Source: Methanoregula sp.
GTDB taxonomy: Archaea > Halobacteriota > Methanomicrobia > Methanomicrobiales > Methanospirillaceae
DNA length: 60,177 nt
Assembly (NCBI RefSeq): GCF_003170075.1
Contig: NZ_PMZU01000062.1
Location: 1 to 60,177, forward strand
Reading direction: 5' to 3'
The notes below the pieces were generated by a model. It was not told where the DNA came from and ran no database searches. It saw only the letters and a program-made list of their open reading frames with translations. A program made the translations under genes and the position numbers. Below, one piece after another: positions 31,863 to 53,538 of this stretch (the stretch's first letter is position 1; each line of letters begins with the position of its first letter).

Positions 31863-32089
31863 ATTGGAGGAAGCACAGGAAAAGACACTCTACAGGGATA
31901 CCAAGGATCGTATACCGGATTTTCCTAACGGATGCGATACCCAAAAAATAGCTAAAGGAAGACAAATTTATGGTATAAACTGCGTGCCAGGAGAAATCTC
32001 TGATGATAAATGTATAGGTTAGGATCGGGATATATATGGTAAGAATTTCAAACTGCACTAAGATTTGTATAACCTCTTCGAGGATCGGC

Positions 32090-33463
32090 ATGAGTGAAAT
32101 AAACGGATACATATCTCCCGGTAACAGGGATGTTGCAAGAACTGGAAGTCGTTCTTCGGGGGGCCGCATCAGCGCCCTGTGGTTTCTGTGCCTCGTATCG
32201 ATCGTTCTTGCAGTGCTAGCGGTCACCCCGGCCCTTGCCGGGACAAAATACATGGCCGGCAGCCCTGAGCTGAACGCGCATATCTCCGGGACCAACGAGT
32301 TTTCCCCGGGCGACGATATCAACCTGCAGGTCGTCATCGAGAACACGGGGCTCAACCAGTTCAAGATCGTCCAGTCCGGGATTGTCGACCCCAACGACCT
32401 CTCCAACACGGCAAAACAGCTGACGGTGACCCTGGGTGCGGCCGATGCACCCCTCGTTGTCAAGGCTGACCCGCAGGTCGTCGGGGATCTTCCGGCAAGC
32501 ACCAGCGCCACCGCGACGTTCCATATCAAGGTCAACCAGGATGCCCCTGCAGGAACCTACCAGATCCCGGTCGTTCTGAATTACACCTACCTGTACCAGG
32601 CAGAACAGGAAGGCACCGACCTGCTCACCTATCAGTACAAGAATATTAACGAGAGTGTCAGCATCCCGATCAAAATAAAAGCCGAAGTCCAGATTGCGGT
32701 TCCTGATGTTGAAACCGAGAACCTGAACGCGGGGAACGAGGGGTACATCAATTTAACGGTAAAGAATGTCGGGTATGAAGATGGCCAGAACGCGGTAGTC
32801 CGGATCCAGGAAAACGGCCAGAGCCCGGTTACGCCAACGGAGGGGAGCGTCTATATCGGGGATTTCCCCATTGGCGCTGTTACCGACTGCCGGTTCCGGG
32901 TCATGGTATCAAGCGATGCCCAGCAGAAGACGTACCCGCTCGATGTGCTGGTAAACTACAAGAATTCTGAAGGAGACTACGTGGATTCCGCGATCGAGAC
33001 CGTCGGGGTTCCGGTCGGTGAAAAAGTGGACTTCAGCGTTACCCCAATAATGACCACCATCTCTCCGGGGGATAAATCCGTGCTCACGGTCCAGTACCAG
33101 AACACCGGCGGGGCGATTGCCTATAACGCGCAGGCCCGGATCAGCGCTGTCGACCCGTTCACGAGCAATGACGATACCGCCTTTTTAGGGACGATGGCTC
33201 CTGGCGACATCCGCGAAGCGGCGTTTGATGTCTCGGTCGATGCAGGTGCAACGGCAAAAGAGTACGGGCTGGATTCCGAGGTTATCTACCGCGATTCGCT
33301 TAATAACCAGTTTACTTCCGACCCTATGAAAGTCAACGTTCATGTCGTCCCGGCAAAAAGTGTTACTGACCTGTTCAGCCTGCCGGTTATTATCGCGATC
33401 ATCCTGGTTGTGCTTGCCGCTGCTGGTTACCTGATCTACACAAAGCGGTTCAAACCCCAGTAA
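32090..33463 (+). CDS. CARDB/S-layer-like secreted protein with C-terminal anchor
   Basis: A 457-residue surface protein. An N-terminal signal (about residues 28-50, ending in TPALAG) is preceded by an unusually long polar stretch. Three beta-sandwich-type units follow, each with NxGxxxA-like motifs typical of CARDB/COG1361 domains (for example LTVKNVGYEDGQNAVV), and a single helix near the end (VIIAIILVVLAAAGYLIY) leads to a KRFKPQ tail. In methanogens such proteins are often next to an RND exporter, as here (117 bases), suggesting an outside partner of the pump. The ATG at 32090 has GAGGATC upstream. Confidence 0.8.
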   Translation: MSEINGYISPGNRDVARTGSRSSGGRISALWFLCLVSIVLAVLAVTPALAGTKYMAGSPELNAHISGTNEFSPGDDINLQVVIENTGLNQFKIVQSGIVDPNDLSNTAKQLTVTLGAADAPLVVKADPQVVGDLPASTSATATFHIKVNQDAPAGTYQIPVVLNYTYLYQAEQEGTDLLTYQYKNINESVSIPIKIKAEVQIAVPDVETENLNAGNEGYINLTVKNVGYEDGQNAVVRIQENGQSPVTPTEGSVYIGDFPIGAVTDCRFRVMVSSDAQQKTYPLDVLVNYKNSEGDYVDSAIETVGVPVGEKVDFSVTPIMTTISPGDKSVLTVQYQNTGGAIAYNAQARISAVDPFTSNDDTAFLGTMAPGDIREAAFDVSVDAGATAKEYGLDSEVIYRDSLNNQFTSDPMKVNVHVVPAKSVTDLFSLPVIIAIILVVLAAAGYLIYTKRFKPQ

Positions 33464-33580
33464 CACCTTTTCTACACTGGCTCCACCGGGGAAAAATTGG
33501 TACAGGTATATTCCCATGATACCACGGGAGAAGATAACGAGTTCCGGAAGACCGGTAACCCCCCATAAAACAGGACTACC

Positions 33581-35884
33581 ATGATCGATCAGATCTTTGA
33601 TAAAATTGCGCGAACGGTCAACCACCGGCCCAGACTGGTGGTCGGTATCATCGGTGTGGTTTTCATCATTGCCCTTGTTGGCATGACCATGATCACCATG
33701 GCGACCGGCAACGATACCTACCTGGACAAGAATTCACCGGAAGGCATCGCGAACACCCAGTACACCAATACGTTTGCAGCAGATTCCCTTATCCTGATCG
33801 TCGAGACCAGCGATCCCCTGAATCCTGACGTGCTCAACTACATGAACCGGCTGGAAGGAGATATCCGGCAGCAGCAAAACATTGCCAGCGCATCCAGCGT
33901 CGTGGATATCCTTAAAAGTGAGAATAACGGCGTGCTTCCCCAGTCGAAAGGGGAGATCGATGCACTCGTCCGGCAGATGCCCGAAGCGACCCGGGAGGTT
34001 GCCGTTCCCTCAAACGTCCTGACACTCGTGCAGATCCCAATGAGTGAGGGCCTCTCGGATGATACCAAAACTGCCACCCTCAACAATATCCAGTCCCTTG
34101 TCGATAACTCCCAGCCACCGGCTGGCGTGAAAGTATCAGTCTCGGGGAGTCCTGCATTCACCGCCCAGATGAAAGCGGCGATGGGATCCCAGATGGGGGT
34201 CCTGATCGGTGCCGCCATGATTCTGATGGTCATCGTCATGGGCCTGCTCTTCTCCTACGTCAGCTACCGGTTCCTGCCGGTCGTTTTTGTGGGCCTGGGT
34301 CTCAGCACAGCCCTTGGCCTGATGGGCCTGGCTGGCATCCAGCTCAACATGGCGGTGATGGGGGCGTTCCCGGTCATGATCGGACTCGGGATTGATTACG
34401 CGATCCAGTTCCACGCCCGGCTGGACGAGGAGTCCCGGAAAGGTTCGCTGGATGATGCGGTCTATATGACCATCACCCGCACCGGGCCGGCCGTGATGTA
34501 CGCCATGCTGGCCACGTCGCTCGGATTTACGGCAATGTTCATCTCCACCGTTCCCATGGTGCAGTCGTTCGGGCTGGTGGCCATGATCGGGATCATGAGT
34601 TGTTACTGCATCTCGCTCGTGGGCATACCGGCCGTCGCCCAGGTTATCCACTACAAGCCAAAGCAGCAGGCTCCACAGGTCTGCTATGCAGTCGGCGAGG
34701 AGGCCTGCGATACGCTCCCGGCCCCGAAGAAGAAATCCTGGTCATATGGCCAGTTCCTCACCAGCACCTCCGTCAAGATCGCAAAAAACCCGGTCCCGAT
34801 TCTCCTTATTGCAGCGCTCATCGCAGCAATCGGGTTCCAGCTCGACCCGCTCATCGCCATTGAGGCTAACCAGAACAATTTCGTCCCCAGCGACATGCCG
34901 GCAAAGATCCAGATGGACAAAGTCACACGTGTCCTCGGTGCAATGAGTACCGCCGATTTCTACGTCCAGGGTGGCAGGGTCACGGACCTCGATACGATAC
35001 AATGGATGAAATCGTTCCAGGATTATGAACTTTCCAGACACGCGGAACTGACCTCATCGACCAGTATCGTCACGTACATCCTCGCTTACAATGGCGGGGA
35101 GATGCCCCAGACCCAGAGCCAGCTGGATGCCGCGCTTGATAAAATACCTTCCAGTGTGAAAGACCAATACCTCAGTGGTTCGATGAGGGGCGTCATCCAG
35201 TTTGGAATGATCAATCTCCAGATTCCCCAGGAGGAGAACCTCAAGAAAGTGATGGTGAATGATATCTCGTTCCTCCAACCGCTCCCGGGCATCACTGTCC
35301 AGCCGGTGGGGAGCTTTGATCTCTTTACCACTCTGATTGGGGGTCTTTCATCCTCCAAGGATGAGATGACCTATCTCGGCTTTGGGTTGATCTTTGTTTT
35401 CCTTGCCCTCGTGTACCGGCATATCCACGCAATCTCGCCGCTCATTCCGATCGTTCTGGTCGTTGGCTGGAACTCGGTGGCGATGTATATTCTGGGTATC
35501 TCGTATTCTCCGCTGACTGCAACTCTCGGCTCCATGACCATCGGAGTGGCTGCTGAGTATACCATTCTCGTGATGGAACGGTACAGCGAGGAGGAGGAGC
35601 GGCTCCACGACCATGTTGCCGCAATCCAGGAAAGTGTAAACAGAATCGGAACCGCGATTACGGTCTCGGGCCTCGCTACTTTCTTCGGGTTCTCGGCACT
35701 CTGCCTCGCCAGTTTCCCCATCACAAGTAACTTTGGGGTCTCAACCCTGATCGCGGTCGGGTTCTCCCTCATCGGCGCGATCTTCATCATGCCGGCTGTG
35801 CTCTCCCTCATGGGCCAGTTCACCGAGTGGCTCGAGAAGAGGAAGTCAACCTCGCAGAAGACGGATAATGGCGATACCATATAA
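33581..35884 (+). CDS. RND/MMPL-family exporter
   Basis: A 767-residue transporter with the RND two-fold plan: one N-terminal helix, a large outer loop, then about five helices, repeated once. The first half has the GxxxDY-type motif GLGIDYAIQFHARLDEE in its TM4-like helix; the second carries GVAAEYTILVMERYSEEE, where Asp is replaced by Glu. These acidic residues normally relay protons in MMPL/COG1033 exporters. The C-terminus ends in a Lys/Ser-rich tail. Adjacent to the CARDB-type gene and downstream of MarR/ABC, it fits an efflux or envelope-lipid export locus. Confidence 0.9.
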   Translation: MIDQIFDKIARTVNHRPRLVVGIIGVVFIIALVGMTMITMATGNDTYLDKNSPEGIANTQYTNTFAADSLILIVETSDPLNPDVLNYMNRLEGDIRQQQNIASASSVVDILKSENNGVLPQSKGEIDALVRQMPEATREVAVPSNVLTLVQIPMSEGLSDDTKTATLNNIQSLVDNSQPPAGVKVSVSGSPAFTAQMKAAMGSQMGVLIGAAMILMVIVMGLLFSYVSYRFLPVVFVGLGLSTALGLMGLAGIQLNMAVMGAFPVMIGLGIDYAIQFHARLDEESRKGSLDDAVYMTITRTGPAVMYAMLATSLGFTAMFISTVPMVQSFGLVAMIGIMSCYCISLVGIPAVAQVIHYKPKQQAPQVCYAVGEEACDTLPAPKKKSWSYGQFLTSTSVKIAKNPVPILLIAALIAAIGFQLDPLIAIEANQNNFVPSDMPAKIQMDKVTRVLGAMSTADFYVQGGRVTDLDTIQWMKSFQDYELSRHAELTSSTSIVTYILAYNGGEMPQTQSQLDAALDKIPSSVKDQYLSGSMRGVIQFGMINLQIPQEENLKKVMVNDISFLQPLPGITVQPVGSFDLFTTLIGGLSSSKDEMTYLGFGLIFVFLALVYRHIHAISPLIPIVLVVGWNSVAMYILGISYSPLTATLGSMTIGVAAEYTILVMERYSEEEERLHDHVAAIQESVNRIGTAITVSGLATFFGFSALCLASFPITSNFGVSTLIAVGFSLIGAIFIMPAVLSLMGQFTEWLEKRKSTSQKTDNGDTI

Positions 35885-35990: not shown

Positions 35991-37913
35991 ATGGATCACA
36001 CCACTCTTACGGTCGCGCTCATCCAGATGGAGATCAGGCCGGACATGAATGAGAACCTTAAAACGGCGCTTGCACGTGTGGAGACTGCTGCACAGAACGG
36101 GGCACAGATCATCTGCCTGCCCGAACTGTTCCGTACCAGGTACTTCCCGCAGCAGGTAGGGATACCTGCGGATCAGTTTGCCGAGAGCGTTCCCGGTGAA
36201 TCGACAGAGGCATTTGCCCGGCTCGCCCGGCGATATGCAGCAGTCATCATCGTCCCGGTTTTCGAGAGAACCCCATCCGGACGGTTCTACAATACAGCGG
36301 TTGTGATCGATGCCGACGGAAGCCTTCATGCACCCTACCACAAGGTCCATATCCCGCAGGATCCGGGATTCTTTGAAAAATGCTACTTCTATCCGGGAGA
36401 TTACTATGCAGTGCATGCCACCCGGTACGGGCGCATCGCTGTCCTCATCTGCTATGACCAATGGTTCCCGGAGGCGGCCCGGTGCGTGGCCCTTGACGGG
36501 GCGGATATGATATTCTACCCCACAGCGATCGGAAACCTCTGTACGGAACCACCGGGAGAAGGAGACTGGCAGGAGGCATGGGAACTGATCCAGCGCAGCC
36601 ATGCAATCGCAAACAGCGTGCATGTAGCTGCGGTCAACCGGGTGGGACAGGAAGGAGATATCCGGTTCTTCGGGGGATCGTTTGTCTGCGATGCGTTTGG
36701 AAAACTGCTTGCCCATGCCGGAGATACGGAAGAGACTGTTGTCGCCCATATCGATGTGGGGATGAACACCGCAATCAGGGACTCGTGGGGGTTTTTCAGG
36801 AACCGCCGTCCCGATACTTACGGCACCGTCTGCTCACGGGTGCCGGAACACGATGCGACGGCACCCATTCCCCGCAAAGGAGATACCCCCAGAAAACTGG
36901 GCTTTTTCATGCCTGCGGAGTGGGAGCCGCACGATGCCGTATGGCTATCATGGCCACATAACAAAAACACATTCCCTCACCTTAAGGAGGTGGAGGATGG
37001 GTATATCAGATTTATTGCTGCAGTCACGCCATCCGAACGTGTCGAGCTCTTTGTCCCCAACCCCATGATAAACAGGATGGTAAAGGCACGGTTAAGAAGC
37101 ACAGGTATCGACCTGTCCCGGGTCACAATTCGGACAATCACCTATTCCGATGTATGGATCCGTGATTACGGCCCGACATTCGTGGTGAACCCGGCCTTGA
37201 AAAAAACTGCGATGGTCCGCTGGGAGTTTAACGCGTGGGGCGGGAAATACGAAGAGCAGATCGCCGATGGAAATGTCCCAAAGGATATGAACCGGTGGCT
37301 TGACCTGCCCGTTTTCCGGCCGGGAATTATTCTCGAAGGCGGTTCAATTGATACCAACGGCAGGGGTACGGTACTGACCACCCGCGCCTGCCTCCTCAAC
37401 CCGAACCGGAACCCGAAACTCACACAGGAAGATCTCGAAGACTATCTCAAAGAATATCTCGGAGCGGTAAAGATCGTCTGGCTGAACCTCGGTGTGACCG
37501 GCGATGATACGGATGGCCATATCGATGATATCGCACGGTTTGTTTCACCATCAACCATTGTCTGTGCGTACGAAGAAAATCCTGCAGATGAGAATTACGC
37601 GGCCCTCAAAGAGAACTACGAGATCCTGACCCGGGCGACCGATCAGGAGAACAAACCCTTCACTATTATAAAACTCCCGATGCCTGCCCCGATTATCAGT
37701 GACGATGAACGGTACCCGGCAAGTTACACGAACTTCTATATCGGGAACACCGTGGTGATAGTGCCGGTCTTTGACGACTCCCATGACGAGGAGGCACTCC
37801 GTATCATCCAGGAAATCTTCCCGGACCGGACTGTAACCGGTGTAAATGCCCGTGCGATGGTCGAGGGATTCGGGACATTCCACTGCGCCACCCAGCAGCA
37901 GCCCCGGCCGTGA
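35991..37913 (+). CDS. Fused N-carbamoylputrescine amidase / agmatine deiminase
   Basis: A 640-residue protein joining two enzymes that act in sequence. Residues 1-~290 are a nitrilase-fold amidase (AguB): Glu45 in CLPELF, Lys118 in YHKVHIP and Cys154 in LICYDQWFPE form the triad. From ~300 (GFFMPAEWEPHDAVWLSWP) to the end is an agmatine deiminase (AguA) with DVWIRDYGPTF, GDDTDGHID and the catalytic Cys632 in FHCATQQQP; the usual GGGxIHC is FGTFHC. It should turn agmatine into N-carbamoylputrescine and then putrescine, ammonia and CO2. The two halves are normally separate genes. No frameshift or stop lies in the junction. Single gene. Confidence 0.92.
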   Translation: MDHTTLTVALIQMEIRPDMNENLKTALARVETAAQNGAQIICLPELFRTRYFPQQVGIPADQFAESVPGESTEAFARLARRYAAVIIVPVFERTPSGRFYNTAVVIDADGSLHAPYHKVHIPQDPGFFEKCYFYPGDYYAVHATRYGRIAVLICYDQWFPEAARCVALDGADMIFYPTAIGNLCTEPPGEGDWQEAWELIQRSHAIANSVHVAAVNRVGQEGDIRFFGGSFVCDAFGKLLAHAGDTEETVVAHIDVGMNTAIRDSWGFFRNRRPDTYGTVCSRVPEHDATAPIPRKGDTPRKLGFFMPAEWEPHDAVWLSWPHNKNTFPHLKEVEDGYIRFIAAVTPSERVELFVPNPMINRMVKARLRSTGIDLSRVTIRTITYSDVWIRDYGPTFVVNPALKKTAMVRWEFNAWGGKYEEQIADGNVPKDMNRWLDLPVFRPGIILEGGSIDTNGRGTVLTTRACLLNPNRNPKLTQEDLEDYLKEYLGAVKIVWLNLGVTGDDTDGHIDDIARFVSPSTIVCAYEENPADENYAALKENYEILTRATDQENKPFTIIKLPMPAPIISDDERYPASYTNFYIGNTVVIVPVFDDSHDEEALRIIQEIFPDRTVTGVNARAMVEGFGTFHCATQQQPRP

Positions 37914-44932: not shown

Positions 44933-45901
44933 TCATTCCGGTTCCCCGAGAACCCGAAGAACCGCATTACCGAATTCCCGGGTCCCGGCCGATCCGCCAA
45001 TGTCCCGGGTCCGGATACCGGAAGCAAGCACCTGTCTGATTGCAGATTCCACCCGCACGGCCCCATTCGCGTCGCCAAGATGCTCAAGGAGCATCGCAGC
45101 GCTCCGGAGGGTGGCGATTGGATTTGCACTGTTTTTGCCGGCTATATCAGGAGCACTGCCGTGCACCGGCTCAAAGAGGGCGTACCGGTCGCCGATGTTT
45201 GCACTTGGCACGAGACCCAGTCCCCCGACAAGATATGAGGCAACATCGGAGAGGATATCGCCAAAGATGTTTGTCGTCACGATCACGTCGTATGCCTGCG
45301 GGTGCTGGAGGACGTCAAGACCGAGGGCATCGATGAACTTTTCATTATATGACACTCCGGCCTTTTTTGCCTCCGCTATGCAGATATCGCGGAAGAGGAC
45401 ATCGGACTTGAGCACGTTTGCCTTGTGGCCGATGGTGAGTTTTCCCTTCCGCTGCCGGGCAAGCCGGATCGCCGCTCTCACGATCCGTTCGGTTCCCGCA
45501 CGGGTCACCACCCGGAGTGTCGTCGCACGGTCCGGACCGATCTCTTCAATCCCCGAGTACATCCCCTCGGTGTTCTCACGCACGATCATGATATCAAAAC
45601 CATCGCTTTTGACCGGGCGCAGGTTTGCGTACAGATCGAGTGCCTTCCTGATCCGCAGGACAACGCTCTGGTAATCTTTCATCGGCGGGGTCGTGACCGC
45701 CCCGAACAGGACGGCATCGGCAGTTTTGAGCATCGCGATATCGCGGTCTGCACAGGGACAGCCGGTCTGCTCCCAGCGATGGTACCCCAATTCGACCGGG
45801 AAGTACTCGTACTCGGGGTGGAGCACGGCAAGAACTTTTTGTGCGGCCGGGATCACCTCATGACCGATCCCGTCGCCTTTAACGATCGCGATCCGCGTCA
45901 T
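44933..45901 (-). CDS. aksF: (Homo)isocitrate dehydrogenase of coenzyme B synthesis
   Basis: A 322-residue member of the isocitrate/isopropylmalate dehydrogenase family (AksF/LeuB). The N-terminus KGDGIGHEV, the substrate-binding IVRENTEGMYSG, GHKANVLK with catalytic Lys, TNIFGDILSD and FEPVHGSAPDIAGK are all present. In coenzyme B synthesis it oxidatively decarboxylates threo-homoisocitrate and its homologues to give 2-oxoadipate, 2-oxopimelate and 2-oxosuberate. Sequence alone does not exclude LeuB; the YLRT loop in the adjoining hacB favours AksF. Its ATG overlaps the preceding stop (ATGA). Last gene of the operon. Confidence 0.85.
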   Translation of the reverse strand: MTRIAIVKGDGIGHEVIPAAQKVLAVLHPEYEYFPVELGYHRWEQTGCPCADRDIAMLKTADAVLFGAVTTPPMKDYQSVVLRIRKALDLYANLRPVKSDGFDIMIVRENTEGMYSGIEEIGPDRATTLRVVTRAGTERIVRAAIRLARQRKGKLTIGHKANVLKSDVLFRDICIAEAKKAGVSYNEKFIDALGLDVLQHPQAYDVIVTTNIFGDILSDVASYLVGGLGLVPSANIGDRYALFEPVHGSAPDIAGKNSANPIATLRSAAMLLEHLGDANGAVRVESAIRQVLASGIRTRDIGGSAGTREFGNAVLRVLGEPE

Positions 45902-46698
45902 CTCGTCCTCCACTGACTTACCAGTTCCTGTACCGAACGGGCAATTTTTGCGGGACTGGCACCCCAGTGGACGATCGCCCCGAACTTCCCGTTCCAGGTT
46001 CCGACCCCTTCACGCTCGGCCCGGCAACACCGGGCAATAAACGGCTCTTCTTTAATCTGTTCCAACGGACAGATGTTCTCAAGAGTGAAATTCGTCCCGT
46101 AGCACTCCGTGCAGAACTGCGTTGCCGTAAGACACCCGGCCACCCGTTCGCCACCCTGCATCGGGTCGGCATCCAGTGTCCGCGTATACCCGGCAGCCCG
46201 GCAGGGATAGATATCGGCATGCACCGTGGTGATGTCCCGGATATGGTGATCGAAGAGCACCGAGAGTTCCCCAAAGAGCCCAATCACCTCCATTTCCTTT
46301 AAGGCTGCCGAGAGAGTCGGCCGGGGAGGAATGACATCGTAGACATGCACGGTAAGAAATCCCGAAATGTCAGGATCGAGAACAAACGTCATGTTCTCTT
46401 CAAGCCCGGTAAAGACCGTGCACCGGTACCCGCTTTCAAGAGCAAGCCTTACGAGCCGGGTCCTGTCGTTGAGCTGCACTTTTTCAGGGTAATGGCAGAC
46501 CTCATCAGGTATCGCAAGGACACAGGACGAGACGATATCCCGCATGACGGTTTTTTTCGCGGGGTCAAGGGCGATCTCAAGAAGTTCATATCCCCTTTCA
46601 GTCTCCCGCAGGAGATATCGGCTCAGGGCATAGACCTTGTCGCCACAGGGCCTTGTCGAGGCAAGCCCGACAACTTTACAGTGCTCCGGGAAGATCAC
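45898..46698 (-). CDS. Cys-rich protein of unknown function in the coenzyme B operon
   Basis: A 266-residue soluble protein of a family I do not recognise. The C-terminal half has cysteines in CLTATQFCTECYGTN ... ICPLEQ and ARCCRAE, enough for a zinc or Fe-S site, and FDHHIRDITTVHADIYP (with several His/Asp) in the middle. The N-terminal STRPCGDKVYALSRYLLRETE could be nucleotide-related. It begins with a GTG that overlaps the hacB stop (GTGA) and its own stop overlaps aksF, so it is fixed within the operon. A role in assembling or protecting HacAB is possible but unproven. Confidence 0.85.
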   Translation of the reverse strand: MIFPEHCKVVGLASTRPCGDKVYALSRYLLRETERGYELLEIALDPAKKTVMRDIVSSCVLAIPDEVCHYPEKVQLNDRTRLVRLALESGYRCTVFTGLEENMTFVLDPDISGFLTVHVYDVIPPRPTLSAALKEMEVIGLFGELSVLFDHHIRDITTVHADIYPCRAAGYTRTLDADPMQGGERVAGCLTATQFCTECYGTNFTLENICPLEQIKEEPFIARCCRAEREGVGTWNGKFGAIVHWGASPAKIARSVQELVSQWRTR

Positions 46699-47165
46699 CG
46701 GTGAGCCCTCCAGTATTCGACAAGGCCGCCGGCCGTGAGGATCTCACTCATGCGGGGAGACAACGGGCGGATCGTGTGCCGTTTTCCTTCAGTTTCGACC
46801 CAGCCCTGTGAAAGGTCGAACACGACCGTGCTTCCTTCTTTGCAGGTCAGATCCGATTCGATAAGCGGAAGGCCGATGTTGATCGCGTTCCGGAAGAAGA
46901 TCCGTGCAAACGATGGTGCGATTATGGCGACGACCCCGGCCTCCCGGATCGCAATCGCTGCCTGCTCCCGTGATGATCCGCACCCGAAATTTTTTCCGGC
47001 AACAATAACCGATCCCTTCAGCCGGGCCGCAAGGGAAGGGTCGAGATCCTCAAAGACGTGGGTGGCCCAGATACTCCGGTCCTTTGTCCGCAGGTACCGG
47101 CCGGCGATGACAACATCGGTGTCAATGTCGGCCGGCAGGCAGACCGCTGTACCTTTGCCCTGCAT
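46695..47165 (-). CDS. hacB: Methanogen homoaconitase small subunit
   Basis: A 156-residue small subunit of the LeuCD/HacAB hydro-lyases. The swivel-domain signature KNFGCGSSREQA is present. The substrate-recognition loop near the N-terminus reads YLRT (residues 24-27). In Methanocaldococcus that loop is YLRT in homoaconitase and YLVY-like in isopropylmalate isomerase, so this protein should act on homoaconitate homologues of increasing length for coenzyme B. Its ATG overlaps the hacA stop by one base (TAATG). HacA and HacB form the active heterotetramer. Confidence 0.9.
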   Translation of the reverse strand: MQGKGTAVCLPADIDTDVVIAGRYLRTKDRSIWATHVFEDLDPSLAARLKGSVIVAGKNFGCGSSREQAAIAIREAGVVAIIAPSFARIFFRNAINIGLPLIESDLTCKEGSTVVFDLSQGWVETEGKRHTIRPLSPRMSEILTAGGLVEYWRAHR

Positions 47166-48376
47166 TAGGCCGCCTCCGGGGATGTGATCTCGCCTTTTAA
47201 AGCGCTTGCTGCGGCAGTAGCAACAGAGCCAAGGTAGATCTCCCCACCGACACCCATGCGGTTTTTGAAGTTCCGGTTGGCGGTCGAGAGACAGACCTCG
47301 CCTTCGCCGAGCACCCCCATATGATAACCAAGACAGGGGCCGCAGCCGGGCGTCCCGAGGGTGCAGCCCGCCTCGGCGATGTCGGCAAGTACCCCGGTCC
47401 GGATTGCCTTTTCAAGGATCGCTGCAGAGGCAGGGATCACAATGGTCCGCACGGCCACTTTCCTACCTTTGACCAGCCGGGCAAACCGGGCGAGATCGGA
47501 ATACCGCCCGTTTGTACAGGTACCGACAAATACCTGATCGAGAGGGAGACCCGCCAATGCCTCCACGGGCTTAACCGTGTCAACCCGGTGGGGCATGGCT
47601 ACAAGCGGCACGACATCGGCAAGATCGATATCGAGTTCCTGCCGGTATGTGCAGGACTCGGGCACCTGTGGAGCGACATCATGGCCCCGCTCTTTTAAGT
47701 AGCGGACAGTTACGTCATCCGCATAGAAGAGACCGGCCTTTGCCCCGGCTTCTACGGACAGGTTTGAGAGGACGAGACGCTCATCGATAGAGAGATTACG
47801 TGCACTTTCGCCCACAAACTCGAGCGCCCGGTAGGTCGCGCCATCCATGCCGAGTTTTTCCACGTAAGTAAGCGCGAGATCCTTTGCCTCGGCCGCACCG
47901 GTGAACCTCCCGGTGAGGTTAACACCCACCGATTCGGGGACCCGGAACCACGTCTCTCCTGTCAGCCAGATTGCCGCCATATCGGTCGCACCGACGCCCG
48001 TCGCAAATGCCCCGAATGCCCCGGGCGTGACACTGTGTGAGTCGGCACCGACCACGATCTCCCCGGGCAGGACAATCCCCTCGCTCATCAGCTGGTGGCA
48101 GATCCCGCAGCCGATATCCGAGAAGTGCATGAACGAACGTTTCGCAAACTCCCGCAGCTCGTGCTGGAGGGTCGCCGTTGTGCTGTTGTTGGCCGGGGCG
48201 ATGTGGTCGAACTGGATATAGTAATCAGAGTCTTTCCCCAGCCGGTCGCCCCCCATGGCATTCCAGGCTTCAAGTGCGAGAACACCCGTCCCGTCATGGG
48301 CATATGCCCTGTCGACCTTCCGGTCGACATACTCCCCTGCGGCAGCACCGAGAATCCGCTCCGAGAGCGTACTCAT
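47165..48376 (-). CDS. hacA: Methanogen homoaconitase large subunit
   Basis: A 403-residue aconitase-family large subunit. The [4Fe-4S] cysteines are in VGTCTNGR, and the pair CTLGTPGCGPCLGYHMG near the C-terminus, as in LeuC/HacA. The N-terminal DHIAPANNSTTATLQ and GADSHSVTPGAFG motifs bind substrate. With HacB it isomerises homocitrate to homoisocitrate. The ATG at 48376 overlaps the aksA stop (ATGA). Assignment as homoaconitase rather than isopropylmalate isomerase rests on hacB's YLRT loop and on the operon. Confidence 0.9.
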   Translation of the reverse strand: MSTLSERILGAAAGEYVDRKVDRAYAHDGTGVLALEAWNAMGGDRLGKDSDYYIQFDHIAPANNSTTATLQHELREFAKRSFMHFSDIGCGICHQLMSEGIVLPGEIVVGADSHSVTPGAFGAFATGVGATDMAAIWLTGETWFRVPESVGVNLTGRFTGAAEAKDLALTYVEKLGMDGATYRALEFVGESARNLSIDERLVLSNLSVEAGAKAGLFYADDVTVRYLKERGHDVAPQVPESCTYRQELDIDLADVVPLVAMPHRVDTVKPVEALAGLPLDQVFVGTCTNGRYSDLARFARLVKGRKVAVRTIVIPASAAILEKAIRTGVLADIAEAGCTLGTPGCGPCLGYHMGVLGEGEVCLSTANRNFKNRMGVGGEIYLGSVATAAASALKGEITSPEAA

Positions 48377-49503
48377 ACGGTTGTCTCCTGCTGTACCCGT
48401 CCGATCAGTTTTTGTAAAACCTCGGGCGTAATACTGCACTTCTGTTCGGAATGTTCCTTGACAAGGTCAAGCAACCGGCAGATCTGCGCTTCAGAAAGGT
48501 CGCAGCCAAGCGTGGCCACAACATGTTCAAGCGCCTTTCTCCCGGTATGTTTACCGAGGAGGAAGTGCCGCTCGCCGCCCACCAGTGCCGGGGAAAAATA
48601 CTCGTACGTGGCGGGATCCTGAAGAATGGCAGCGATGTGGATACCGCTCTCGTGCGAGAACGCAAGCTCCCCGGTGACCGGCTTGTTTTTCGGGAGTGCA
48701 ATACCGGAGTATTTCTCAACCTTGTGGGAGAGAGCAGTGAGGCATGAAAGATCGTACCGGTCGATACCACCCTTCTGCCGTAAGATGACGAGCACCTCCT
48801 CAAGAGAGGCATTGCCCGACCGCTCACCGATACCATTCACGGTGGTATGGAGCTGGAACGCCCCGGCCTGCGCCGCGGTGATCGTGTTTGCAACCGCACA
48901 GCCCATATCGTTGTGACAGTGGGCGCAGAACGGCCGGTCGACCGATGAGACAAGGTCAGTCATGATCGTGCGCATCTCGTCTGGGATGAGACAGCCCACC
49001 GTGTCGGCAAAACTGAGCAGGACGGCACCGTGCTCAGCCGCCCTTCGGTATACCTCTTTTAAGAACACCGGATCGGTCCGTGAGGCATCCTCAGCAGCAA
49101 ACCGTACTTTGACCCCGTGATCCCGGGCGAAATCAATTATGGAAAGGGCATCATCAAGCACCTGTTCGCGGGGTTTCTTGAACTTGAGCCGGATGTGAAG
49201 ATCCGAAGTCGGGATAAAGATAGAAACCATATCGACACCGCAGTCAACGGCGTCCATAATATCCGGTTCCCGCGCCCGGGCAAATCCACAGATCCGTGCA
49301 TCGAGCCCGAGATCTGCGATGGCCTTCACGCACCTTTTTTCGTTCCCGGAGACTGCCGGGAACCCGGCCTCGATCACTTCGATGCCGATGGCATCCAGTG
49401 TCCGGGCAATATCCACCTTCTCTTCGCAGGAGAACGACACCCCTGGTGTCTGCTCCCCGTCTCTCAACGTTACATCGCAGATCTCAACATTCCACGGTTT
49501 CAT
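48373..49503 (-). CDS. aksA: (R)-homocitrate synthase family protein
   Basis: A 376-residue enzyme of the homocitrate/isopropylmalate synthase family. The catalytic TLRDGEQTPGVSF is near the N-terminus and the metal ligands are in CHNDMG. It condenses 2-oxoglutarate and longer 2-oxoacids with acetyl-CoA. It has no long C-terminal leucine regulatory domain, which favours AksA over LeuA. The ATG at 49503 overlaps the TPP-protein stop by 20 bases. Together with HacAB and AksF it would carry out the repeated chain extension to 2-oxosuberate. Confidence 0.9.
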   Translation of the reverse strand: MKPWNVEICDVTLRDGEQTPGVSFSCEEKVDIARTLDAIGIEVIEAGFPAVSGNEKRCVKAIADLGLDARICGFARAREPDIMDAVDCGVDMVSIFIPTSDLHIRLKFKKPREQVLDDALSIIDFARDHGVKVRFAAEDASRTDPVFLKEVYRRAAEHGAVLLSFADTVGCLIPDEMRTIMTDLVSSVDRPFCAHCHNDMGCAVANTITAAQAGAFQLHTTVNGIGERSGNASLEEVLVILRQKGGIDRYDLSCLTALSHKVEKYSGIALPKNKPVTGELAFSHESGIHIAAILQDPATYEYFSPALVGGERHFLLGKHTGRKALEHVVATLGCDLSEAQICRLLDLVKEHSEQKCSITPEVLQKLIGRVQQETTV

Positions 49504-50755
49504 GGTGTGCCCCCTGCGGGCATTTCGCTTCCACAACCACGGTTACCGGTGCATCCGTGTGACAGATGACCTCGCGGAGGCGGCATTCATCTTCCGCACG
49601 GCAGATGACCGGGTCGGCCCAGGTAAGGTAGGGGACGGGATCGCTGGCAGGCTGCCCACCGGTCATCGCGGTGCAGTGATTTTTCATCACGATGCACAGG
49701 AGCGGAAGTCTCTTTTCATACACATCGATCAGGGCGTTTAACCCAGAATGGAGCAGCGCATAATCCCCGATGAGCGCCACGTGCGTGCTCCGTGCGGCAA
49801 CCGCGATACTCGAACCCATGCCGTAACTGGCCACGCCCAGTTCATAGGGAGGATTCAGACAGAATACCGAGCACCCGGCATCGCAGATGACCGGCATGTC
49901 ACGTTTTTTAAGGATGCCCAGTACCGGTTTGAAGGGACACGCTGCACAGAAAGTCTTGTAGAATCCCCGCACATTCCTCGATTCTGGCGGTTCCTGCAGG
50001 TCCGGGGGCAGAATACCCCGGTGATCCCGGACAAACGGCCGGCCGTGCTCGTGCACTTCATGAGCCTCCGCGGCACGGGAAGGCAGCGGGTGGACAGTTA
50101 CGACCCCGCTTTCTCCCGGTGCCGGCCCGGCGCCGAGCGGTTCGCGTTTCCACCGGTTTAATGGGGATGCTGCCGACCAGGCAAACATCTTCCGGTACAG
50201 ATTTTCAGCCGCCATTGCCCGGCCATGCATCGTCCATCCCCGTTCTGCAAGCCGGCCTTTCCTGTCGCTGCGGGAGACAACGCTTCCGGTCACGTCAGCA
50301 TCCAGCAACTGCGGCGTGAGCCGGAGCATGGCGACCCGGGAAAACTCTTCCGATGCCTCAAGTGCTGCCTCAACACCGGTGTAGCATGAAGATTCGTCCG
50401 GTTCGACCACCGGAATCTCTGCCAGTTCCCCGTAATACCTCGAATCCTGGGCGGTCTGGGAACCCTTCGAACCGGGGTCATCTCCCACGACAAGGAGAAT
50501 GCCCCCGACAAGACCCTGAACCGTTGCCCCGCAGAGAGGATCGGCGCAGGCATTGACGCCCACGTTCTTTACGATGACCGCTGCCCGTTTCCCGGACAGG
50601 GAGTCCCCAAGCGCATATTCAAGAGCAGTTTTCTCGTTTATGACCATCTCGGCCAGGGTGAGCGCACCAAGCTCCGTTACCGGGAAGCCCGGAACCGTGT
50701 ACTGCCGGTCGGTACAGGCACAGATCGCTTCAGCAAGAGCCTCCACGCCCTTCAT
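49484..50755 (-). CDS. IorA-like TPP-dependent protein, candidate 2-oxosuberate decarboxylase
   Basis: A 423-residue protein like the catalytic subunit of indolepyruvate ferredoxin oxidoreductase. NEKTALEYALGDSLSGKRA and DDPGSKGSQTAQDSRYY form the pyrimidine-binding half; GDYALLHSG and KNHCTAMTGGQ form the TPP/Mg half. IorA is usually ~600 residues with a two-cluster ferredoxin domain at the end and needs IorB; both are missing here. Cysteines remain in FCAACPFKP and CDAGCSVFC. Lacking its electron outlet, it could decarboxylate a 2-oxoacid non-oxidatively, as the coenzyme B route needs for 2-oxosuberate. ATG overlaps the radical SAM stop. Confidence 0.85.
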   Translation of the reverse strand: MKGVEALAEAICACTDRQYTVPGFPVTELGALTLAEMVINEKTALEYALGDSLSGKRAAVIVKNVGVNACADPLCGATVQGLVGGILLVVGDDPGSKGSQTAQDSRYYGELAEIPVVEPDESSCYTGVEAALEASEEFSRVAMLRLTPQLLDADVTGSVVSRSDRKGRLAERGWTMHGRAMAAENLYRKMFAWSAASPLNRWKREPLGAGPAPGESGVVTVHPLPSRAAEAHEVHEHGRPFVRDHRGILPPDLQEPPESRNVRGFYKTFCAACPFKPVLGILKKRDMPVICDAGCSVFCLNPPYELGVASYGMGSSIAVAARSTHVALIGDYALLHSGLNALIDVYEKRLPLLCIVMKNHCTAMTGGQPASDPVPYLTWADPVICRAEDECRLREVICHTDAPVTVVVEAKCPQGAHHETVEC

Positions 50756-51720
50756 TCGTCCCTCCCGGGCACGAGATCGCACCCTGCGCAGTTCGTGCAC
50801 ATCGTAAGGGCACCGGATGGGTCAAGTCCTGCGGCAGCAATCGCCCGGGCGTGCATGGTATAGAGGGTTTTGAGCCGTTCCGCTGACGGGCGCGGTGTGC
50901 CGGTAAACCCGGCAACCGGGTTGAGCGGGCGCAGGACCGGGATCACACCATGGGACGTGAGCTTGTTGATACAGGTCTCCATTTCCGCATCGGTCTCCCC
51001 AAGTCCGATGATGACATTGGAAAAAACCCGGTTCTTTCCAAAGAGTTCAACGGACCGGTCGAGCACCCGCCAGAGCAGGTCATAATCAAGACCGGGGCAT
51101 ATCGCCGCAAACAGTTCCTGGGTCGCAGCTTCGATATTGAATTTCACCTCGGCTACTCCGAGAGCAAGAAGTTTGTCCGGGGTCTGGTCAGTCGGGTAGA
51201 TGGAGACACCGATGGGCAGGTCAAAGAAAGAGAGGTGCCGGATCACTTCGCAGACATAGGCCTCTTCATCCTCAATACTCCCGGCAACGCCGCTCGTGAG
51301 TGAGATTGCGCTGACCCGGTGCCGGACCGATTCAACGAGATTCATGATCTCTTCAATAGTCTTGCGTTTCCCGGAGAGACTGGGAACCGAACAATAGCGG
51401 CAGGAGAATATGCAGCTTTCTGTTACCGTGATAAACGCCTGGTCCGGGCAGTGGAGCCCCGGCTGGATAAGCCGGCCTGGGATCTGCTGGTCTTCAAAAT
51501 ACAGGTCAGCAACACCGCTGCCACGGTGGGCAATCTCGACTGGAGATGACGGATTGATCGCAAGCTTGACCCTATGGCTGCCCATAGCAAAGAAAACCGA
51601 ACCCTTCCCTCCGGCACCCGGGCCTGCGGTAGATTTTGCAATAAAATCGTCTGCAGGTTCGCCGCTGATCCGGGCAGAACCTGCTGACAGCAGGCGGGCC
51701 TTTAAGTCTTTCCACTGCAT
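50752..51720 (-). CDS. Radical SAM protein with C-terminal Cys cluster
   Basis: A 322-residue radical SAM enzyme. The SAM-binding [4Fe-4S] motif is CIFSCRYC near residue 106, with a partial TIM barrel after it (VIIGLGETDAEME). The last residues contain CTNCAGCDL, a CxxCxxC that could hold a second cluster, as in sulfur-inserting enzymes. The N-terminal ~80 residues are a separate part with no recognised domain. It overlaps mmp11 by 19 bases and is coupled to the TPP protein. Possible roles are the C-S bond of 7-mercaptoheptanoate, or a modification tied to methanogenesis; neither is shown. Confidence 0.88.
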   Translation of the reverse strand: MQWKDLKARLLSAGSARISGEPADDFIAKSTAGPGAGGKGSVFFAMGSHRVKLAINPSSPVEIAHRGSGVADLYFEDQQIPGRLIQPGLHCPDQAFITVTESCIFSCRYCSVPSLSGKRKTIEEIMNLVESVRHRVSAISLTSGVAGSIEDEEAYVCEVIRHLSFFDLPIGVSIYPTDQTPDKLLALGVAEVKFNIEAATQELFAAICPGLDYDLLWRVLDRSVELFGKNRVFSNVIIGLGETDAEMETCINKLTSHGVIPVLRPLNPVAGFTGTPRPSAERLKTLYTMHARAIAAAGLDPSGALTMCTNCAGCDLVPGRDE

Positions 51721-52598
51721 AGTTCCAGTGCCTCCTCGTATTGTGTATAGAAGGGCAGGGCCGCCACCGCCCCGGTAATCCCCCTCCCGGCCATAATCAC
51801 ACGGAGGCAGGGATCGTTAATGTTCCATACAAGATCCGGTCCCACTTCCCCCCGTTTCACGTTCCTCCCGTACTCAAGAAGTGCCTCAGAGGGGGTAAAA
51901 CCGGTATATACTGCCATCCCGGTCTTCTGTGAAAGGGTGTATTTTTCAAGCAGTTCGTGGAACCGCTCCGTCAGGCGGCCCGGTTCTGTCGTGGCAAATT
52001 CCACGACAAGGCTCACACAGTTTTTCGTCCGGTATGCGACAGGAAAGAGCTGGACGATCGTGTGAGAGAGGTAGACCGAATGTTCATCCTCAACGGCTTT
52101 TGCGATGTTGTGGACAAGCGTCCACGTCGCTCCTTCCTCACAGGTATCGGTGTCGTCTACTCCGATCAGCACCCGCTGGCGCCGGGGAAGCCAGATCGTG
52201 GCACCGGCAATTTTTCCCCCGCCGGCAGGATCGCAGCGTTCCCGCAGTACTCCTTTTGCTGCAGCACGGCAGGAGGTCGCACCTACGCCGCCGCCTCCCA
52301 TGCCGATATAGGTCACCGCGATTTCATGCTCCGTTACTGATACACCCGAGATCCCGGCAGGGAAGCGTGATCCCTCAAGCGCCAGATCCACGGCACCGGG
52401 GCGGAGCAGGAAACGGGTCGTCGATCCCACACCACGGACACTCTCGACAATCGGACTCTGCGCGTAATGATGCTGCGTCCACATCGCTCCCCCGACGCAG
52501 TCGAAGAATTCAATCAGCTCAACCTTGCTTCCGCTCTCGTCCGCAACCGCAACGATCTGCGGGTACCTGATGACATACGGATCAGAGATGCTCACCAT
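51702..52598 (-). CDS. Methanogenesis marker protein 11
   Basis: A 298-residue protein of the methanogen-only family Mmp11. The N-terminal YPQIVAVADESGSKVELIE and DCVGGAMWTQHHY are typical, followed by TYIGMGGGGVGATSCRA and IGVDDTDTCEEGATW. The DDTD element is shared with TiaS, an ATP-using enzyme that modifies tRNA-Ile2, so ATP chemistry is likely. Substrate unknown. The ATG at 52598 was chosen because it begins directly at the family's N-terminus; it overlaps the upstream paralog by 17 bases. Within the coenzyme B operon it is a candidate kinase or ligase. Confidence 0.88.
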   Translation of the reverse strand: MVSISDPYVIRYPQIVAVADESGSKVELIEFFDCVGGAMWTQHHYAQSPIVESVRGVGSTTRFLLRPGAVDLALEGSRFPAGISGVSVTEHEIAVTYIGMGGGGVGATSCRAAAKGVLRERCDPAGGGKIAGATIWLPRRQRVLIGVDDTDTCEEGATWTLVHNIAKAVEDEHSVYLSHTIVQLFPVAYRTKNCVSLVVEFATTEPGRLTERFHELLEKYTLSQKTGMAVYTGFTPSEALLEYGRNVKRGEVGPDLVWNINDPCLRVIMAGRGITGAVAALPFYTQYEEALELCSGKT

Positions 52599-53538
52599 AC
52601 AGACCTGCTGCCTCGATTCCCCGGTTGCCCCAGAGCACCGCCCCGAGCGCACCGATTCTGCCCTTCCGCCCGGTGTGGTCAAGGTACTCGATACCAAGCC
52701 GCCGGGCCTCGCGTTCCGCTTCCTCAAGGGTCACGATCTCGGTCTTGACTGCTTTCGCCACCGGGGAATCCTGCACCGTCCCAATGCCCTGACAGAATGC
52801 GATACCGGTATCCTTTGAGAACGTATGCTCCTCGACAAACGTGCAGACAAACTCCCGAAGCGCTCCGATGCTGCCAGGACGGGCGGCAAAGTTGAGAGCG
52901 GAACCTACACAGTTTGTCGTCTTGTTCGGGACCGCCGGGTTGAGCTGGACAAGGCGCATGTTCAGGAATTCCACACCCTCAATATGGCAGGCCTCTGCGC
53001 ACTTAAGCGCCATGACCCAGGTAGCGCCTTCCTGCTTTGTGTCCGTATCGTCAATGCCGAAACAGACCTTCTCGTACCGGGGCGAAACGATCCGGACATG
53101 ATTGGTCAGGGCGCCGCCTATCCTGAGGTCGTCCTCGGTGGGATATTCTGCACGGATGACACCCGGTGCCTGCGGGAGGCATGCCGCTACACCGACACCG
53201 GCACCTGCGATGCCGGCCCATGTCGTGATCACCTCGTTGCCACTTACTTCCACCGCTTCCAGCGCCTGCCCGCCAATCGTATCGGCCGCAGCCCCGAAAT
53301 TGGCCGGGTGGGTGCCAAGATGTGCCCGGATTGTCATCGTGCTTCCCTCGACTGCACATGTGGCCACGACACCACCGGCGCGACGCCGGTTCATCGCGTC
53401 CCACTCGATAGTTCCACGGGCATGACACTGCTCAAGGATCTCTGCGAGTCCTGCTGTTTCGTCAACCATCACCAGAAATTTCTTTGAGAAGAGCGGGCCG
53501 AACCGCTTCTTCACGTCATCGGGTGTAAGCGTGATCAT
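52582..53538 (-). CDS. Second DDTD-family protein (Mmp11 paralog)
   Basis: A 318-residue protein with the same layout as the next gene: IAGAGVGVAACLP in the middle, then FGIDDTDTKQEGATW and NKTTNCVGSALNFA. It shares motif order with Mmp11 but is clearly different in its first 60 residues, so the two are old paralogs, not a recent duplication. It is the first gene of the nine-gene operon and its ATG lies about 45 bases after the TATA box. ATP-dependent activity is inferred from the DDTD motif; the two proteins may form a heterodimer. Confidence 0.85.
   Translation of the reverse strand: MITLTPDDVKKRFGPLFSKKFLVMVDETAGLAEILEQCHARGTIEWDAMNRRRAGGVVATCAVEGSTMTIRAHLGTHPANFGAAADTIGGQALEAVEVSGNEVITTWAGIAGAGVGVAACLPQAPGVIRAEYPTEDDLRIGGALTNHVRIVSPRYEKVCFGIDDTDTKQEGATWVMALKCAEACHIEGVEFLNMRLVQLNPAVPNKTTNCVGSALNFAARPGSIGALREFVCTFVEEHTFSKDTGIAFCQGIGTVQDSPVAKAVKTEIVTLEEAEREARRLGIEYLDHTGRKGRIGALGAVLWGNRGIEAAGLYGEHL

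Follow-up and report, generated by a model that had tools for sequence, protein, structure and literature searches.

A fused aguB-aguA gene widespread in methanogens probably stands in for agmatinase

The window, a stretch of 60,177 nucleotides from Methanoregula sp., contains an open reading frame that raises the question of whether two enzymes of agmatine metabolism, N-carbamoylputrescine amidase (AguB) and agmatine deiminase (AguA), are joined in one archaeal polypeptide and, if so, what the joined protein does. The fused aguB-aguA gene occupies positions 35991..37913 on the plus strand, as do all its parts described below, and runs from an ATG start as a single frame of 640 aa with no internal stop. 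Its N-terminal half (residues 7-262, 36009..36776) is an AguB domain of the nitrilase superfamily, matching the CN_hydrolase model PF00795 over its full length (E 2e-60, model span 1-254/256), while its C-terminal half (residues 307-638, 36909..37904) is an AguA domain with the pentein fold, likewise matched over the full length of the PAD_porph model PF04371 (E 4e-121, model span 2-321/321). Between them lies a linker (residues 278-292, 36822..36866) that is predicted to be disordered, with a pLDDT <50, and is variable among homologues. Comparisons with solved structures agree with these assignments. The N-terminal half matched 5h8i, the Medicago N-carbamoylputrescine amidohydrolase MtCPA (E 3e-54), and 6mg6 (E 6e-57), its solved relatives being MtCPA, the closest solved N-carbamoylputrescine amidase, and a Helicobacter relative; the fold match to solved structures reached TMt 0.86-0.91. 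The C-terminal half matched agmatine deiminase family entries 1xkn, 2ewo, 2jer, and 1vkp in the PDB, with fold matches of TMt 0.85-0.92 (including 1xkn, 2jer, and 3h7c). The frame, the domains, the folds, and the residues considered below thus bear out the earlier note's description of one polypeptide with AguB at its N-terminus and AguA at its C-terminus.

The top-scoring specific models for the fusion were those of AguB (TIGR03381, residues 7-279) and AguA (TIGR03380, residues 299-638), both of which fell short of their equivalog cut-offs, with 264 vs. 410 bits for the N-terminal half and 296 vs. 381.8 bits for the C-terminal half. The split proteins of one Nitrospinaceae and one Bacteroidales genome likewise scored below these thresholds (296-318 bits for AguB and 286-289 bits for AguA), so that the cut-offs exclude this whole branch of the families rather than the fusion specifically.

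The catalytic residues named in the earlier note, Glu45, Lys118, Cys154, and Cys632, were all found at those positions and are invariant in 67 fused homologues. In the AguB domain, these comprise the nitrilase-type catalytic Glu45 (36123..36125) and Lys118 (36342..36344), as well as the nucleophile Cys154 (36450..36452), which lies in the motif CYDQWFPEAAR, aligned with CWDQWFPEAAR of MtCPA. In the AguA domain, the catalytic nucleophile Cys632 (37884..37886) lies in the motif FHCATQQQP and aligns with the C-terminal catalytic Cys of 2jer and 1vkp, while His510 and Asp512 form the active-site pair in the motif GDDTDGHIDD (37518..37526), recognised by alignment with the Medicago enzyme MtAIH. 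Asp506, just upstream of this pair, takes the aligned position of the Asp that binds the agmatine amine; together with Glu129 of the AguB domain, His510, and Asp512, it belongs to the further residues, unlisted previously, that are invariant in the same 67 homologues. Cys366, His224, Asp226, and Asp220 have been described in MtAIH (PMC6447857), and the aligned motif suggests that they correspond to Cys632, His510, Asp512, and Asp506, respectively. Purifying selection was detected on both halves, with dN of 0.04-0.23 against dS of 0.40-2.58 where computable. Inactivity of one half, which had been put forward as a possible refutation of the two-enzyme reading, finds no support in either conservation or selection.

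The genomic surroundings of the fusion consist of unrelated transporters and do not form a polyamine operon. Upstream, a CARDB/NPCBM-type surface protein and an HAE3 family RND transporter are encoded at 32036-35884 (+), followed further upstream by ABC transporter genes, which are also found next to the fusion in genome G010; no conserved neighbour gene was found in five sampled genomes. Elsewhere in the window, two adjacent paralogues on the minus strand (51702-53538) match methanogenesis marker protein 11 (TIGR03280), one above and one below its cut-off, and have TiaS-like domains. The genes at 44933-51720 (minus strand), of the Iso_dh, aconitase-family, homocitrate-synthase-like, and radical SAM kinds, form a run that resembles a coenzyme B 2-oxoacid elongation cluster.

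To establish the distribution of the fusion, 232 genomes of the order were searched for AguA, a fusion being counted where the match lay in one frame of 570 codons or more. Strong AguA matches were obtained in 137 of them, and in about 118 the match lay in a single frame, including some single-contig genomes. Separate aguB and aguA genes were present in 10 genomes, all from the genus g29, and the other nine AguA-positive genomes had contig-end fragments or frame shifts. A second methanogen family of the same phylum (f21), which may be Methanotrichaceae, carried the fusion in 14/14 sampled carriers. Covering genomes of this phylum, the search in other archaea proposed earlier returned the fusion in some 118 members of the order and 14 of this second family. 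In G506, from a further family, aguB and aguA were separate adjacent genes. Among strong matches, no AguA frame long enough for a fusion occurred in 60 carriers of Nitrospinota or in 146 carriers of Bacteroidota, where the longest frames were weak, divergent PAD_porph matches. Candidate bacterial fusions (Nitrospinota, Bacteroidales, and others) were discarded when their full-length matches proved to be two adjacent frames, as were three one-piece plasmid matches (Photobacterium, Vibrio, and Ensifer) with stops between the halves. In the draft genome G027, two compensating frame shifts, which may be sequencing errors or real, interrupt the fusion (L027, 2767-4662). A divergent PAD_porph protein, with frames of about 410-480 aa and a two-piece match in most cases, was seen only in genomes without the fusion (G058, G131, G041, G036, G150, G145, G148, G137, G142, and G143).

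The function of the fusion was approached by comparing its occurrence with that of agmatinase (SpeB, TIGR01230), an enzyme of unrelated fold that performs the same overall conversion of agmatine to putrescine but does so in one step and releases urea. The comparison covered the 135 genomes of the order with a completeness of 90% or more and a contamination of 5% or less; AguA of the fusion type was present in 86 of them and absent from 49. An agmatinase-family gene (PF00491) was present in all 49 genomes lacking the fusion. Among the AguA genomes, 26 of the 86 belong to family f5 and carry both the fusion and PF00491; outside f5, PF00491 was found in only 8 of 60 fusion genomes (Fisher p 6e-23, a value that overstates independence because the genomes are related). 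The switch between fusion and agmatinase recurs within each of the families f1, f2, f3, and f4. In f21, PF00491 was present in 6/6 sampled genomes without the fusion compared with 5/14 with it (p 0.014). Representatives of both PF00491 types exceeded the agmatinase cut-off of TIGR01230; seven Methanoregulaceae matches had been considered arginase-like, a reading that was rejected as their representative passes the agmatinase model, and these genes are accordingly counted as agmatinase within the 8 of 60. Short or stop-containing PF00491 fragments were also noted in G521, G523, G828, G829, and G837, the first two being fusion carriers, and these are possibly decaying agmatinase genes. The window genome has neither PF00491 nor SpeD among the genes found, while a deoxyhypusine-synthase family gene is present, as is the pyruvoyl arginine decarboxylase PvlArgDC, the source of agmatine, which occurs in 213 of the 232 genomes.

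Because the fusion and agmatinase largely replace each other across the genomes of this order, these occurrence patterns are most simply explained if the fusion does the work of agmatinase and forms putrescine from agmatine. We consider it very probable that the protein is a bifunctional two-domain enzyme of this kind, born of an adjacent gene pair, with its domains acting independently on a flexible tether. It would act downstream of pyruvoyl arginine decarboxylase, in the position of one-step agmatinase. The activities that we infer for the two halves would proceed from the C-terminal AguA domain, converting agmatine to N-carbamoylputrescine and ammonia, to the N-terminal AguB domain, converting N-carbamoylputrescine to putrescine, CO2, and ammonia. 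A service in a different pathway, either the catabolism of agmatine for nitrogen or the action of one half on another N-carbamoyl or amide substrate, appears unlikely. It would be in keeping with the specific models scoring below their equivalog cut-offs and with the agmatinase-family gene also being kept in some genomes; against it stand the intact agmatine-binding and catalytic residues and the presence of an agmatinase-family gene in every sampled near-complete genome of the order without the fusion and in all six such genomes of f21, which would be expected if both genes served the conversion of agmatine to putrescine. Nevertheless, the retention of both genes in f5 and some other genomes suggests that the two may not be entirely interchangeable, and the position of the fusion among transporters, outside any polyamine operon, also weighs against the favoured reading.

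The reason for which the fusion is kept is a separate question. The earlier note had suggested that the fusion could channel N-carbamoylputrescine, the intermediate being handed from AguA to AguB without becoming free. The conservation of the fusion over a wide methanogen group would suit this explanation, as would the Trp-lined, tunnel-shaped active sites described in the plant structures of both the AguA and AguB types (PMC6447857). However, the linker is short, not conserved, and predicted to be disordered, with 37-65 residues separating alignment positions 263 and 314 among the homologues. The AlphaFold2 model of the monomer combines confident domains with a linker of pLDDT <50 and a pTM of 0.59; the relative placement of the domains is thus uncertain, which indicates no fixed docking in the monomer. 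Moreover, genus g29 and G506 run both enzymes from separate adjacent genes. Channelling as the reason for retention therefore lacks support and is improbable, on the strength of a model that covers the monomer only. The enzyme families of both halves work as homo-oligomers. In a stronger version, oligomerisation would set the AguA exit beside the AguB entrance in an obligately channelling putrescine synthase, so that N-carbamoylputrescine would never be free and agmatinase would have been displaced several times; we find this decidedly improbable, and if it were true, the genus with separated genes would assemble this complex from two distinct polypeptides. Most likely, then, the protein would consist of two independently folded domains on a flexible tether, between which N-carbamoylputrescine would diffuse, tight channelling being absent, and the benefit of the tether would lie in equal dosage and co-localisation. 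Other nitrilase-superfamily proteins, namely NitFhit and glutamine-dependent NAD+ synthetase, also carry their nitrilase domain at the N-terminus of a fusion, but with another partner and reaction. In the NAD+ synthetase, ammonia is channelled, whereas the methanogen fusion gives no evidence of a tunnel or fixed interface.

Regarding the origin of the fusion, the nearest bacterial relatives (Nitrospinota, a Bacteroidales, and a deltaproteobacterium) have adjacent aguB and aguA genes, in this order and with overlapping open frames, while the reverse gene order occurs in Clostridia, Fusobacteriales, and one alphaproteobacterium. That these bacterial relatives keep aguB ahead of aguA would explain the N-terminal position of the second-step enzyme, the domain order following the operon and not the reaction. 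The fusion is old and would most likely have arisen from such a bacterial-style overlapping pair through the loss of a stop or a frame shift between the genes. The archaeal sequences form one clade (support 100/100), and genus g29 (L089-L098, L028), which belongs to the same family as the window genome and has separate, adjacent aguB and aguA, is nested among the fused sequences in the trees of both halves and in the joint tree. In four of its species (L090, L093, L094, and L096), a single TGA interrupts what is otherwise one frame through both genes, and in others the two frames overlap, a pattern that suggests translational coupling and a fusion that has been split again. Constraining all fused sequences to one clade gives a tree that fits worse (AU test, p 0.029), a result that weakly favours re-splitting. 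From the placement of g29 and this test, we infer the direction of change, a single fusion event with a later re-split in g29 being favoured; two separate fusions, for which the open deep branches of the tree leave room, are less favoured. That the single frame is an artefact, whether an assembly error joining two genes, as the earlier note had allowed for, or a sequencing error removing a stop, has next to no probability: the separated genes of g29, in several species with one in-frame stop between them, are in its favour, but some 118 genomes of the order that were assembled independently, single-contig ones included, and 14 of the second family show the same frame, which already refutes it for the lineage as a whole.

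When compared to known systems, separate AguA and AguB enzymes (the aguBA operon of Pseudomonas aeruginosa, plant AIH and CPA, and the genes of Nitrospinota and Bacteroidota) are homologous and perform the same two-step reaction, and several bacteria share the aguB-then-aguA order of the fusion, but there the enzymes are two polypeptides. The closest precedent comes from a Ca. Diapherotrites (DPANN) archaeon, for which a fused aguA-aguB gene is noted in passing, in half a sentence (PMC10407285, J Biol Chem 2023), so that this kind of fusion was already known. There too, one archaeal gene encodes both enzymes, but it is clustered with speDA and speY, is named without further characterisation, and has its domain order indicated by the name alone (PMC10407285), whereas the methanogen gene is solitary and has been kept in many genera. 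Our search of the openly accessible literature found no paper describing or testing the fusion in methanogens, nor biochemistry for any member. In that literature, neither the distribution across methanogens nor the replacement of agmatinase appears to have been reported.

These observations would assign a likely putrescine route to many methanogens without agmatinase, including the window genome. They also provide a natural series of separate overlapping, fused, and re-separated genes that lets the benefit of fusing consecutive enzymes, for which channelling is often claimed and seldom tested, be measured directly.
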